A stretch of DNA of 34,226 bases from a virus: positions 1-34,226 of the IMG/VR virus record IMGVR_UViG_3300028595_000009. One strand, given 5' to 3'. Positions 1,013 to 34,226 of this stretch are shown piece by piece. Each line of letters starts with the position of its first letter. Within the stretch, counting starts at the first letter, position 1. Made by a program: the position numbers and the translations under genes. Under the pieces are notes generated by a model that was not told the DNA's origin, searched no databases, and saw nothing but the letters and a program-made list of their open reading frames with translations.

Positions 1013-1876
1013 ATGGCAGATAGAAGAATGTTTTCAAAAGCAATAACTAATTCAGCTAAATTTTTAAAAATGCCACTTGAAACACAAGCTTTATACTTTC
1101 ATTTAGCACAAAATGCAGATGATGACGGAGTAGCAGAAGGTTTTAGTACGATGAGATTAATTGGAGCAAATGAGGATAGTTTAAGAATTTTAAGTGCAAA
1201 AGGATATATAAAAATATTAAACGAGGACCTAGTTATTTTTATAATTGATTGGCTAGAACATAATAAGATAAGAGCAGATAGGAAAAAGAATAGTGTTTAT
1301 AAAGAGTTATTGTTAGAAAGCGTTCCAGATGTAAAGCTAATAGCCCCAAAGGAAAGGAGCGATTTAAAAAAAAATAATTGCAACAAAAGGACAACCAGTG
1401 GACGTCCAGTGGACAACAAAAGGACAACCAATTGGCAACCAATGGACGGCATAGGTAAGGATAGGTTAGGTAAGGATAGGTTAGGTAAGGATAGGTTAGG
1501 TGAGGACAGACAAAAAGAAAAAAGCGTAGTCGGTCAGTCGGTCAATATAGATGAATCAATAAATTTTTATAATAAAAATATAGGAATGATAACTAACTAT
1601 GTAGCCGATGAAATAGAATCATTTATCCAAGACGGAATAGAAGAAGCATTAGTAATAAAAGCAATGAAGAAAGCTTTAGACGCAGGGAAAGGGAACTGGG
1701 GCTACACTAAAGGTATATTAAACAATTGCTACAAAGAAAATATAAAAACAGTTGAAGAGTTTGATGCTAAGGAGATGCAAAAAAATAACAATAAAGTCAA
1801 ACAAACTGTAAGCACAGAAACAAAAAAAGAATATACTGTTGAAGATTTTGAAGAATTTTTTTATAAAAATAAATAA
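1013..1876 (+). CDS. DnaD-domain replisome organiser / replication initiator, 287 aa
   Basis: Residues 1-110 match the N-terminal winged-helix region of phage replisome organisers (MADRRMFSKAI at the start, then FLKMPLETQALYFHL). Residues 120-170 are a low-complexity linker with the repeat KDRLG. Residues 183-245 carry a DnaD (DnaB_2-type) domain ending in NWGYTKGILNNC, typical of the family. Such proteins bind the phage origin and recruit the host helicase through a loader, and the origin often lies inside the gene. Repeated DNA at 1381-1507 fits that. ATG start with AAGGGG upstream. Confidence 0.88.
   Translation: MADRRMFSKAITNSAKFLKMPLETQALYFHLAQNADDDGVAEGFSTMRLIGANEDSLRILSAKGYIKILNEDLVIFIIDWLEHNKIRADRKKNSVYKELLLESVPDVKLIAPKERSDLKKNNCNKRTTSGRPVDNKRTTNWQPMDGIGKDRLGKDRLGKDRLGEDRQKEKSVVGQSVNIDESINFYNKNIGMITNYVADEIESFIQDGIEEALVIKAMKKALDAGKGNWGYTKGILNNCYKENIKTVEEFDAKEMQKNNNKVKQTVSTETKKEYTVEDFEEFFYKNK
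1381..1507 (+). repeat. Iteron-like repeat cluster inside the initiator gene (putative origin)
   Basis: A perfect 17-bp direct repeat starts at 1381 and 1414 (CAACAAAAGGACAACCA). Two CCAGTGGAC copies lie between. From 1453 come three perfect tandem 15-bp units, AGGTAAGGATAGGTT, at 1453-1467, 1468-1482 and 1483-1497, then a degenerate fourth. Iterons in the linker of a replisome organiser gene are the known arrangement for several phage origins. Origin activity here is inference. Confidence 0.65.
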
Positions 1877-30848: not shown

Positions 30849-32321
30849 TTACAATTCCAACAATTTTTTATAATCTTTTTCGCTCATTCTTATGTAGCTT
30901 TTTCTATTTTCTGCTTCTATAACTTGTATAGTTTTCAAAAATCCATAGATACTTTTCCCCTTTGATTCTGTTATTCCAATTTTCTTAGATATTTTTGTTA
31001 TTCCTGCAATCTCTCCATTTTTGCTTTTACTGTTTTCAGCTTCCTCAAGATAAAGCTTTATTATGTCTTTATAAGTGTAGTGAAATTTTTGTAAACTTTC
31101 ACTTAGCAAGTTAGTATTAATTTTCTTAAGTCTTAAGTTATTTGTCTTAGGTCTTAGGGATTTTTCGCTAAGACTTAGGTTAGATGTCATAACCCCATTC
31201 TGTTGTGGCTCTTTAAGACTTAAGGATTCATCTTTAAGACTTACAATTGTTTCTTTAGGTCTTATGGTATCTGTCTTAGGTCTTATCTTTTCAATTATAT
31301 TTCCTAAGACATCTTTTTTAACTCTTACTTGTTTGATATTTTTCTTAGGTTTTTCGTTAAGACTTAGGTTATCTGTCTTAGGTCTTAACTCTTTTTCTTT
31401 CTTAAGATTTTTGATATCTGATACTTTCTTAGTTATCTTAGCAAATGCACCTATTATACCACTTATTCCACCTAACCCTATGTTAATATTTATGCCTGTT
31501 GTGCTTATCATTACCAAAAATGTACCGAGTAATTCGGCAAATACATTTTTTAAGAGGTAAAAGGTGCCTAAAATATTTTCTGGGCTCTCTCCTATGCCCA
31601 TACTATGGACCCAACTTGCAAATGCCAACATTCCCTCGGTTGCTAAGATTTTAGAATCTCCTATGTTGCTTAAGTCTGTCTTAGCAGATTCTTTAAGATT
31701 TCTATATGTTCCTAGCTGAGTTTCTAAGCTATTTATCCTGGAGTCTATCTCAGCTTCCTGTTCAGCTCGTCTAGTGTTTATTCTCTTATCCCAAACGTCT
31801 ACCCCATCCCTTGGGCTTCCACTTGGTGTTGTTATCCAGTTCTTTGATTTAGCATAAGCACGTTTTTCTTTAAGTTCTGTAAGTGATTTTTCTATCTCGA
31901 TATTCTTGTTACTTTTTAAGTTGCTTAATTCAGACGAGATACGGGCTATTTCCTTTTTGTTTGTTTCATACGAATCCAAGTTCAACTTATAAATATCTGA
32001 TGCTAGAATCGACTCTTGCTTTATCACATTGGCTTTGTTTAGGTCCAATGATTGTGATGCTATCATCGAGATACTAAAACAACCTAAGTAAAACAATAAA
32101 CTTATAACAGCCATACCATGATTCCCTTTGGATAACATATAAATAAATACTGATGCACATACAAGTTTTCCAATGTCGATACTAATACCTACTAGACCCA
32201 AAGCTTTTCCAAACCATGTACCAGTTACAAAACTTTCAAACAACATATAAGTACACATCATACTAAACACAATCATTATTATTCCTGCTACATACCCAAG
32301 AAACATCATATACTTATTCAT
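30849..32321 (-). CDS. Membrane protein with C-terminal winged-helix-like DNA-binding domain, 490 aa
   Basis: ATG with GGAGG seven bases upstream. Residues 7-28, 41-63 and 68-90 are membrane segments, 110-220 a coiled coil, 254-276 and 278-296 two more membrane segments. Residues 311-400 are a basic linker with repeated RPKT and LSLK motifs, and 414-490 a winged-helix-like domain (GITKISKKIGITESKGKSIY, then FLKTIQVIEAENRKSYI). A DNA-binding domain tied to the membrane next to the control region suggests replication, partition or regulation. I recognise no family. The linker DNA is a dense repeat array. Confidence 0.82.
   Translation of the reverse strand: MNKYMMFLGYVAGIIMIVFSMMCTYMLFESFVTGTWFGKALGLVGISIDIGKLVCASVFIYMLSKGNHGMAVISLLFYLGCFSISMIASQSLDLNKANVIKQESILASDIYKLNLDSYETNKKEIARISSELSNLKSNKNIEIEKSLTELKEKRAYAKSKNWITTPSGSPRDGVDVWDKRINTRRAEQEAEIDSRINSLETQLGTYRNLKESAKTDLSNIGDSKILATEGMLAFASWVHSMGIGESPENILGTFYLLKNVFAELLGTFLVMISTTGININIGLGGISGIIGAFAKITKKVSDIKNLKKEKELRPKTDNLSLNEKPKKNIKQVRVKKDVLGNIIEKIRPKTDTIRPKETIVSLKDESLSLKEPQQNGVMTSNLSLSEKSLRPKTNNLRLKKINTNLLSESLQKFHYTYKDIIKLYLEEAENSKSKNGEIAGITKISKKIGITESKGKSIYGFLKTIQVIEAENRKSYIRMSEKDYKKLLEL
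31125..31387. repeat. Array of 13 TAAGAC/GTCTTA hexamers inside the membrane-protein gene
   Basis: Plus-strand GTCTTA starts at 31130, 31144, 31151, 31259, 31273, 31280, 31375 and 31382; TAAGAC starts at 31169, 31214, 31235, 31305 and 31358. Longer forms are GTCTTAGGTCTTA (31144, 31273, 31375) and TAAGACTTA (31169, 31214, 31235, 31358). The two orientations encode different peptides (RPKT and LSLK), so conservation looks DNA-level. Iterons, a centromere or operators are possible. Confidence 0.8.
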
Positions 32322-32339
32322 CCTAATACCTCCATTTTT

Positions 32340-32484
32340 TAGTTTAGATTTGTTTTTTAATAAAAGATGGGATATAATTTAAATGTTCTGATTTGCATAT
32401 TCTTCAGATTTACATTTTTGTAAATCACATCTTTTATTTTGATTGGTAATCAAAGCGAAAAGCAGGGGAAACCCTGTTTTTTTG
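32340..32484. other. Structured leader of the leftward transcript
   Basis: AATAAAAGATG (32359-32369) and CATCTTTTATT (32428-32438) form an 11-bp inverted repeat enclosing a second hairpin, GATTTACA / TGTAAATC (32407-32426). A third hairpin, CAGGG-GAAA-CCCTG (32463-32476), is followed by seven T on the plus strand and would be a plus-strand terminator. Together they could control expression of the membrane protein or shield the divergent promoters from antisense transcription. Confidence 0.6.
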
Positions 32485-32498
32485 TTGCAATTATTCAA
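32379..32498 (-). CDS. Small leader ORF before the membrane protein, 39 aa
   Basis: TTG start with a near-perfect GGAGGTGAT three bases upstream, about 30 bp after the leftward -10 box. The product contains Cys4, 24 and 29 (RCDLQKC) and one short hydrophobic run (GFPLLFALI). It overlaps two hairpins. It may be a real small protein or a leader peptide that regulates the membrane-protein gene, which starts about 58 bp after its stop. The ribosome site is the main evidence. Confidence 0.52.
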   Translation of the reverse strand: MNNCNKKTGFPLLFALITNQNKRCDLQKCKSEEYANQNI

Positions 32499-32528
32499 TA
32501 ATCACCTCCAAGAATTGACTATAAATCT

Positions 32529-32557
32529 ATTATATATTTACATTTAAATTTTGTCAA
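32529..32557 (-). promoter_or_regulatory. Leftward divergent promoter
   Basis: On the minus strand TTGACA (32557-32552), 17-bp spacer, TATAAT (32534-32529), a full consensus sigmaA promoter. It drives the leader ORF and the membrane-protein gene. Confidence 0.9.
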
Positions 32558-32579
32558 TATATACGTACTGTATTGACAA
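32551..32579. promoter_or_regulatory. Inverted repeat joining both divergent -35 boxes (operator candidate)
   Basis: TTGTCAATA (32551-32559) and TATTGACAA (32571-32579) are perfect inverted copies around an 11-bp spacer with TACGTA at its centre. Each arm contains one -35 box, so a dimeric protein bound here would block both promoters. The RHH protein encoded at 32632 is the obvious candidate. Confidence 0.75.
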
Positions 32580-32601
32580 TAAATATATGTTGATATAAAA
32601 T
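32573..32601 (+). promoter_or_regulatory. Rightward divergent promoter
   Basis: TTGACA 32573-32578, 17-bp spacer, TAAAAT 32596-32601, some 30 bp before the first rightward gene. It drives the operon through the origin of coordinates to the terminator at 598-633. Confidence 0.88.
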
Positions 32602-32631
32602 TAAATTAATAAAAAATATAGGGGGTAGCTT

Positions 32632-32838
32632 ATGGCGATACAGAGGAAAAACGGTAGGATAGTTTATAGCACAACTATCAATAAAGAATTAGTTGCAAAA
32701 TTAAGGAAGCTAACAAGTATATTATCATTAGAGCAAGGGAAAGTGGTAAATAGCAATGAGTTAATGGAAGAAGGTATTTTGCTATTACTCGATAAATACG
32801 ATGCAAATATAGAAAGGTGGGACGATATTTATGGATAG
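32632..32838 (+). CDS. Ribbon-helix-helix regulator candidate, 68 aa
   Basis: ATG with AGGGGGTAGC. Strand VYSTTINKELVAKLRKL followed by helices with VVNSNELMEEGILLLLDKY is the Arc/CopG/MetJ-type RHH pattern. Being the first gene behind the divergent promoters, it may bind the inverted repeat at 32551-32579 and control both directions. It overlaps the next gene by eight bases. Confidence 0.78.
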   Translation: MAIQRKNGRIVYSTTINKELVAKLRKLTSILSLEQGKVVNSNELMEEGILLLLDKYDANIERWDDIYG

Positions 32839-33049: not shown

Positions 33050-33109
33050 ATGAATAATTATATTAGACAAGCAACATGTCAACTAACCCCCACCTACGCT
33101 AAAGCTTAG
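33050..33109 (+). pseudogene. Gene start cut off by the structured RNA, 19 codons
   Basis: A strong AAAGGAG site and ATG open a frame MNNYIRQAT that runs into the RNA element at about 33079 and stops at 33107-33109. No such wasted start occurs elsewhere in this compact operon, so I infer a gene 5' end separated from its body by the insertion. The ORF at 33454 may be the remainder. Direct fusion in frame depends on the exact element ends, which I cannot fix. Confidence 0.5.
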
Positions 33110-33453
33110 AGGTGGGAGCTTGAAGAAGATATTCTTTGAAGCTCTAGTTGTCTAGCCTAAGTTCTTAGAGAACTACGTTGGATTAGATGTAGACACCATA
33201 GAATGATTCCCTAGTTCTATGCAACTGTCGTGGCTCTGTAAAAGTTCTAAGGGTAAGGAACGGTCAACCACATTGCGAAGCTATTTCAACATTGGCGAAG
33301 GGAAAATCAACTCCGTAAGGAGGGCGTAACCTGAGAGTATACGCCAGTAGTAAAAAGGTGAGAGCAACTTCTTGGCATATCCAGTTGTTGCTCTGTAGTC
33401 ACCGATTCATATCCCACCTAAAGAGGAAGGAGACTTCTCGGTGAAAAGTTAAA
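33075..33453 (+). ncRNA. HEARO-like structured RNA (putative IscB-type omegaRNA) without nuclease
   Basis: About 375 bases, clearly GC-richer than the flanks, with many hairpins. CAACTA (33080) pairs with TAGTTG (33145), enclosing CCCACCT/AGGTGGG (33089-33116) and GAGCTT/AAGCTC (33116-33144). Others are AGTTC/GAACT (33160-33174), CATAGAA/TTCTATG (33197-33221), CTCC-GTAA-GGAG (33311-33322), GGCGTA/TACGCC (33323-33345), GAGCAAC/GTTGCTC (33362-33393), and CACCGA/TCGGTG (33400-33443) enclosing GAAG-GAGA-CTTC. The 5' CCCACC...GGTGGGAGCTT, the size and the layout resemble HEARO, but no HNH/IscB gene follows. Confidence 0.68.
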
Positions 33454-33918
33454 ATGTTAGATGATGCAGGAATTAAAATTGAGAAAAATGAAAGTGGTGA
33501 ATATGTTTCAGAATATTTTTCAATAAATAGTAAAAAACATGGATATTATAATAGTTTTTTGAAAGAAAACTCTAAATTTAAAATACTTGTAACTATGAAT
33601 AATGATGTATGTATTATTCGTGAAATAGAAAAAATTACATCAGTTACACCAGAGGTCTTTGTATTTGATGTACTTTCTGGAAAAATGAAAATAGAAAAAC
33701 TTGAAACTCCAGAAAATAAACTTAATAATCTTTTAAAAACATTCGAACATTGTGAAAAAGAAATTGTTTGTAGCGAATGTATTTTAAATCCTTGTCAGTA
33801 TAAAGAAATGTTTAGATATTTACATCTGCAATCATATTCAAAATGCCTTGACAAAGTAGAAAAAACAATAAAAGAATATAAAGAATATATGGAAAGGAAG
33901 CTTAAAAATGAACAATAG
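33454..33918 (+). CDS. Hypothetical protein with Cys cluster, 154 aa
   Basis: ATG starts right after the structured RNA; GGTG at 33440 is a weak ribosome site and is part of the RNA's last helix. N-terminal DDAGIKIEKNESGEYVSEYF, and a C-terminal cluster Cys100, 106, 109, 114 and 131 (VCSECILNPCQ). It is not IscB, IsrB or TnpB: no HNH, RuvC or P1 motif. It may be the main body of the gene that begins at 33050. Overlaps the TM2 gene. Confidence 0.72.
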   Translation: MLDDAGIKIEKNESGEYVSEYFSINSKKHGYYNSFLKENSKFKILVTMNNDVCIIREIEKITSVTPEVFVFDVLSGKMKIEKLETPENKLNNLLKTFEHCEKEIVCSECILNPCQYKEMFRYLHLQSYSKCLDKVEKTIKEYKEYMERKLKNEQ

Positions 33919-34195
33919 AGAAATAAATTTAGAAAACATATCATTGAAAAATAGAGGAGTATACATCATATTGGGGCTACTATTTGGATTAATTGGAATA
34001 CACAACTTTTACATAGGAAATTACACCAGGGCGATTATACAACTATTATTATTTACATTTGGAGGAGCTATCTCCGTAATAATAGGATTTATAATTTGGC
34101 TATTACCGATAGCTTTTTACTTAGTATATGGCATATGGGTGCTAATAGAGATTATAACAACAACTAGGGATTCGTACGGTAGATTATTAACTTAA
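33908..34195 (+). CDS. TM2-domain membrane protein, 95 aa
   Basis: Two hydrophobic helices with the TM2 signature GLLFGLIGIHNFYIGNYTRA, followed by a third hydrophobic stretch and IWVLIEIITTTRDSYGR. TM2 proteins are small integral membrane proteins of unclear function, widespread in Firmicutes and their phages. ATG overlaps the previous gene, with GGAAGC upstream. The last 96 bases are repeated at the window start. Confidence 0.87.
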   Translation: MNNREINLENISLKNRGVYIILGLLFGLIGIHNFYIGNYTRAIIQLLLFTFGGAISVIIGFIIWLLPIAFYLVYGIWVLIEIITTTRDSYGRLLT

Positions 34196-34226
34196 AAGGG
34201 GCTGATATAATGGGAAAAGATTGTTT
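34100..34226. repeat. Terminal direct repeat, right copy
   Basis: Identical to 1-127; see the left copy. Counting it once gives 34,099 bp. Confidence 0.95.
34210..34226 (+). CDS. Start of the 101-aa hypothetical gene (repeat of 111-416)
   Basis: The first 17 bases of the gene that is complete at 111-416, cut by linearisation of the circle. Not a separate gene. Confidence 0.93.

Follow-up and report, generated by a model that had tools for sequence, protein, structure and literature searches.

Genome and gene setting

The window, 34,226 bp in length, is the whole of a single virus record (IMGVR_UViG_3300028595_000009), and its terminal repeat (Table 1) suggests a circular genome of ~34.1 kb. 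The genome encodes virion and lysis proteins (terminase, portal, head, tape measure and amidase) as well as proteins of replication and recombination (a DnaD-like helicase loader, an Erf-like annealing protein and a Gam-like protein). Among the ORFs scanned, neither an integrase nor a phage repressor was recognized. The scan, which covered all but a handful of the ORFs (tail-module and small ones), found no ParA either, and most of the ORFs of that size have other assigned functions. The gene for a protein that we call P0001, together with one smaller minus-strand gene, is the sole interruption of a genome otherwise read from the plus strand. It is found after the amidase gene and before the start of the early genes, which is the place that integrase and repressor genes occupy in temperate phages, as judged by gene order and by comparison with the annotated Terrisporobacter phage TVCOM_ph1.

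Upstream of P0001, a 38-nt imperfect inverted repeat (32522-32608) spans both divergent consensus promoters and, with a ribbon-helix-helix (RHH)-like protein encoded on its plus-strand side, could form a genetic switch. A complete HEARO (IscB-associated omega) RNA is present on the plus strand at 33078-33310 (Rfam RF02033; score 108 bits, gathering threshold 83). No IscB was recognized near it, and the downstream ORF (33454-33918) has no significant family match; the RNA is possibly an orphan guide RNA in a phage. A small membrane protein with a TM2 domain is encoded near the genome end (33908-34195; Pfam PF05154, E 8e-9).

Table 1. Positions of the array, of the gene that carries it and of other features of the window
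Feature	Position	Strand	Basis or remark
Terminal repeat, 127 bp	1-127 and 34100-34226		The 30 bases at each end are found again near the other end
Direct repeats in DnaD-like helicase loader gene	1381..1506	+	11-bp (CAACCAATGGA-like) and 15-bp (TAGGTAAGGATAGGT)
Terminator-like hairpin after P0001 gene	30760..30785	-	
P0001 gene, 490-aa orphan, apparent membrane protein carrying the array	30849..32321	-	ORF, translation, AF2 single-sequence model
C-terminal domain, aa 403-490, weakly helix-turn-helix-like	30852..31115	-	
Predicted disordered linker, codons 311-402	31116..31391	-	AF2
Site 1	31126..31136		TTAAGTCTTAA
Site 2	31147..31157		TTAGGTCTTAG
Site 3	31168..31178		CTAAGACTTAG
Site 4	31213..31223		TTAAGACTTAA
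Site 5	31234..31244		TTAAGACTTAC, 1 mismatch
Site 6	31255..31265		TTAGGTCTTAT, 1 mismatch
Site 7	31276..31286		TTAGGTCTTAT, 1 mismatch
Two decayed 21-bp units	31287..31328	-	VRVKKDV and LGNIIEK
Site 8	31357..31367		TTAAGACTTAG
Site 9	31378..31388		TTAGGTCTTAA
Consensus promoter of P0001 gene	32529..32557	-	TTGACA-17-TATAAT, 12/12
Divergent promoter, towards small plus-strand gene at 32632	32573..32601	+	11/12
68-aa RHH-like protein, alternative candidate binder	32632..32838	+	Pfam RHH_3 E 0.019, below curated cut-off

The P0001 protein and its relatives

From its sequence, P0001 looks membrane-embedded. In a single-sequence AF2 model (mean pLDDT 52), N-terminal hydrophobic helices are followed by a long helical hairpin, more hydrophobic helices, a disordered linker and a C-terminal helical domain. 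Residues 311-418 have a pLDDT below 50, residues 312-402 are predicted to have no secondary structure, and the codons that carry the array (311-399) coincide with this predicted disordered stretch. When residues 395-490 were modelled alone, the low-confidence AF2 model (pLDDT 65) had mostly helix-turn-helix (HTH) and homeodomain proteins as its best structural neighbours (Z 3-5; Foldseek E 0.8 or worse), a mere hint that the C-terminal domain may be HTH-like, and so weak a model excludes no fold family. Fold matches to the whole protein (TM-scores of about 0.1-0.2) were discarded, as they reflect long helices only.

Searches of Pfam, PHROG, NCBIfam and PDB gave no match to P0001 above threshold, and hence none to a replication family; DUF536 gave no Pfam hit at E-values up to 1 for the whole protein or up to 10 for its parts. 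A weak match to phrog_37034 was rejected, the one genome match of that family being situated among tail-like ORFs. No homologue of P0001, whole or in parts, was found by tblastn against phages and plasmids, nor by peptide scans of viral_contigs and genome_contigs, which reach close relatives only, nor in 391 class-level and 398 phylum-level genomes. These genomes were chosen around a Lachnospiraceae MAG (G005), and the searched clade is a guess at the host because G005 was reached through a distant terminase match. One match to P0001 (L041, E 0.0018) was rejected because it lies antisense to a 455-aa ORF. The terminase or capsid relatives L009, L010, L015 and L016 are all short fragments, and the gene was not found in them; another relative (L012/G004) has essentially only the terminase in common with this phage.

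The array of near-palindromic sites

Exact search bears out the thirteen TAAGAC/GTCTTA sites of the original prediction and places them in 258 bp (31130-31387). TAAGAC is on the plus strand in five of these (31169, 31214, 31235, 31305 and 31358) and on the minus strand in eight (31130, 31144, 31151, 31259, 31273, 31280, 31375 and 31382). The whole genome contains 27 sites in 34,226 bp, where 19.3 +/- 4.3 are expected, and the densest 258-bp window in 400 Markov-simulated genomes has at most 3 sites, against 13 here. No hexamer in the genome is more clustered; the next that is not composed of A and T only, CCTAAG, reaches 8.

The array is built from a 21-bp repeat with an 11-bp near-palindrome, YTAAGWCYTAR. 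Nine copies with zero or one mismatch occur in clusters of three, four and two, at an exact pitch of 21 bp (two helical turns) within clusters and with site-to-site gaps of 21, 21, 45, 21, 21, 21, 81 and 21. Outside the array, eight copies are scattered over the genome, all with one mismatch. The array sites follow a 7-bp periodicity of the DNA that runs out of step with the reading frame, and three RP units bear a second hexamer 7 bp further on (TTAAGAC CTAAGAC). No more than two intact NTAAGWC slots follow one another, as one 7-bp slot in three is broken. The broken slots are the very ones in which a perfect NTAAGWC would bring TAA into frame.

Searches with the array DNA against phages gave short, weak matches only; the whole region had no match, and a stricter array pattern was absent from viral_contigs. 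Tandem arrays of the heptad (NTAAGAC/GTCTTAN, 4-9 copies) do occur in seven unrelated viral contigs (L064, L066, L067, L068, L070, L071 and L072), mostly outside long ORFs and at contig GC contents of 0.36-0.67. None of 299 genomes from the presumed host phylum contains the heptad triplet, which is therefore no host-wide repeat there, whereas a reversed control occurs in a few of them. These results suggest that such arrays occur with many sequences, and that the heptad is not special to the presumed host clade. Two papers that print such a string were judged by title to be unrelated to it.

Reading of the sites as peptide

On the coding strand, the 21-bp units form an in-frame tandem heptapeptide repeat of 9-11 related copies, which is the form expected of a coding minisatellite. 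The heptapeptides are LRPKTDN, LSLNEKP, VRVKKDV, LGNIIEK, IRPKTDT, IRPKETI, VSLKDES, LSLKEPQ, LSLSEKS, LRPKTNN and LRLKKIN, and they fall into three blocks, with a short slip of register between one block and the next. The original prediction held that the hexamer is read as RPKT in one orientation and as LSLK in the other, that these peptides are unrelated, and that this points to selection on DNA. Two codings are an incomplete account, as the hexamer is read in four ways: xTA AGA C (L/I-R-P), T AAG AC (P-K-T), aGT CTT A (S-L) and GTC TTA (V-L). The last applies to a stray GTCTTA (31305-31310) that spans the junction of the decayed VRVKKDV and LGNIIEK units. All sites but this one fall in a single heptapeptide, L-[RS]-[PL]-K-x-x-x, so the peptides are in fact related.

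LRLK, at residues 396-399, is an intermediate between LRPK and LSLK. The changes CCT to CTT and AGA to AGT lead from LRPK through LRLK to LSLK by single bases, and AGA to AGT also flips the strand of the hexamer, because the changed base is the centre of the palindrome (A or T). With the three peptides single-base neighbours, and orientation set by the central base, the argument from unrelated peptides fails, and mixed orientation alone is no evidence against a protein-level or neutral repeat.

Evidence for constraint on the DNA

Although that argument fails, selection on DNA has moderate support of another kind, from frozen synonymous columns, a conserved core and autocorrelation. Resampling synonymous codons for the same peptide under phage codon usage (20,000 runs) gave 2.2 +/- 1.2 sites with a maximum of 8, and permuting the array's own codons gave 4.7 +/- 1.5 with a maximum of 10, compared with the observed 13; with either codon usage table, resampling never exceeded 9. 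This excludes independent codon choice and leaves shared ancestry of the units. Autocorrelation of the DNA at lags 7 and 14, which are not multiples of three, was reached by at most 9 of 5000 controls, whether these were made by synonymous resampling or by permuting codons, and lag-7 autocorrelation in the array is the highest among 267-bp windows tested across the genome.

In nine units, no change is seen at columns 3 and 9, which are third codon positions within the palindrome, despite amino-acid variation (L/I/V and P/L), whereas third-position columns outside it show 2, 2, 1 and 4 steps (mean 2.25; Poisson P about 0.01). The conserved stretch comprises columns 2-10. Its conservation relative to the rest of the 21-bp unit has P values, by column permutation and under a uniform rate respectively, of 0.0066 and 0.0009 for nine units, a pair inflated by the picking of units partly by motif; 0.010 and 0.0007 for eleven units; and 0.023 and 0.038 for fourteen units, which are the most conservative, the sample of 9-14 units being small and related throughout. 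Because these tests cannot fully separate recent ancestry of the units from selection, we put constraint on the array at the DNA level at only somewhat better than even odds.

Possible functions of the array

The reading that we favour, with a probability of roughly 0.4, is that protein binding to the array would serve to tether an unintegrated phage genome to the membrane or to partition it. A sequence-specific protein would bind the array, which for that reason would be kept as DNA. In this proposal the disorder of its peptide lets the linker tolerate the sites, and the in-frame TAA that a perfect repeat would create accounts for the break in every third 7-bp slot. The binder would be a phage protein, either P0001 through its C-terminal helical domain or the neighbouring RHH-like protein. 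Binding would then tether phage DNA to the membrane, so that a single protein would partition or position an unintegrated prophage. We propose tethering because P0001 looks membrane-embedded, its gene is at the usual place of lysogeny genes and no integrase was recognized. Partition cassettes (ParABS) stand in for integrases in some mycobacteriophages (PMC7157519), and RocS has been proposed to be a single protein that tethers DNA to the membrane (PMC11500499). A more specific version, one-protein partition by a membrane-embedded protein whose centromere resides within the codons of the binder's own linker, and whose array is shaped by the frame through a stop-codon veto, is unlikely.

Several observations weaken the tethering and partition reading. 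No homologue was found for a between-species comparison, the P values are modest and the HTH assignment is weak. The genome has no site cluster elsewhere and none at the promoter, and no ParA was recognized. Heptanucleotide repeats are common in bacteria, and the same heptad occurs in unrelated viral contigs.

A strong competitor, which nonetheless stays below even odds, is a coding minisatellite of 21-bp units that has decayed in a disordered linker and has no function at the DNA level. Unequal duplication of a near-palindromic unit would have produced nine to eleven copies, and single-base R/S and P/L changes the apparent flips. Consistent with this, all units except for small register slips are on the 7-residue repeat, with the single-base steps noted above, and repeats accumulate in regions such as the predicted disordered linker. 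Heptanucleotide repeats are also reported to be the commonest class in the majority of surveyed genomes (PMC4679880), and the heptad arrays of unrelated viral contigs, which mostly avoid long ORFs, fit the same explanation. However, neutral decay should strike all 21 columns alike, whereas the 9-column core is spared (P 0.0007-0.04) and its synonymous columns are frozen although amino acids change.

Intragenic operators, which would regulate P0001 itself or the decision between lysis and lysogeny by looping or roadblock, are improbable. Spacing by two helical turns and palindromes are typical of dimeric regulators, and the divergent consensus promoters upstream suggest a switch region. Yet no YTAAGWCYTAR site with up to one mismatch is present in the promoter region (32322-32631), and the sites begin about 1.1 kb downstream of the promoter. 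The proposal of autoregulatory operators is unsupported because the gene's own promoter has no matching site.

Iterons of a replication origin are still less probable. The direct 21-bp spacing, the AT-rich region and the place inside a gene, as in lambda O (PMC7466680), agree with an origin, but P0001 matches no replication family above threshold, though it might be an orphan initiator, and the DnaD-like gene has repeats of its own. These repeats (1381-1506) are a likely phage origin within a gene, and as the better candidate they make an origin at the array less likely; they are also a second case in this phage of sites inside a gene. The local change in GC skew at 30-32 kb follows the switch in gene strand. 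A signal in the mRNA, whereby pairing between complementary copies would give the transcript a structure that alters its translation or decay, is similarly improbable: the minus-strand RNA (31110-31400) is predicted to fold 4.2 sd more stably than shuffles, but such folds arise as a matter of course from repeats in both orientations, the 11-bp units have one-base loops, and helical-turn spacing is not explained.

Of the three functions originally proposed, iterons of an origin, a partition centromere and autoregulatory operators, a putative centromere or tether site fits best.

Comparison with known systems

In lambda O-type origins, iterons lie inside the gene of the protein that binds them (PMC7466680). 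The P0001 array is similar in being a mid-gene array of repeats, with nine 11-mers, in which extra repeats add residues to the protein. It differs in that P0001 matches no replication protein and looks membrane-embedded, its near-palindromes have a 21-bp pitch, and the phage has another origin candidate. The parS site of pSM19035 consists of tandem 7-bp sites that are bound by the RHH protein ParB/omega, and at least four contiguous repeats without a gap are involved (PMC9499535). A 7-bp register and mixed orientations are shared features, and the protein encoded nearby is RHH-like at a score below the curated cut-off. However, the array has a different sequence, is intragenic, has no recognized ParA and has at most two contiguous intact slots.

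RocS and pSK1 Par (PMC11500499), and apparently P0001, are NTPase-free proteins that each unite a membrane part with a long helical stretch and a putative DNA-binding domain. The order of parts is opposite, as they have an N-terminal DNA-binding domain, a coiled coil and a C-terminal membrane amphipathic helix, whereas P0001 has several hydrophobic helices and no amphipathic helix, and no sequence relationship was detected. Bacteria commonly contain heptanucleotide simple sequence repeats (PMC4692102, PMC4679880), which, like the heptad arrays of viral contigs, have the 7-bp periodicity seen here. Those viral arrays are mostly clean tandem runs outside long genes, whereas the P0001 array is diverged, coding, based on 21 bp and conserved in its core. 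Precedents exist piecewise (lambda O, mycobacteriophage ParABS, RocS and pSM19035), and by these comparisons the array is an established member of none.

If the array is a decayed minisatellite, it is a warning that clusters of a hexamer in two orientations can stem from one near-palindromic coding repeat. If tethering is real, P0001 and its array would be a compact, NTPase-free means of holding an unintegrated phage genome at the membrane, with the gene and its DNA site fused in one segment, and would provide a clean case of a protein-binding array and a reading frame constraining each other.
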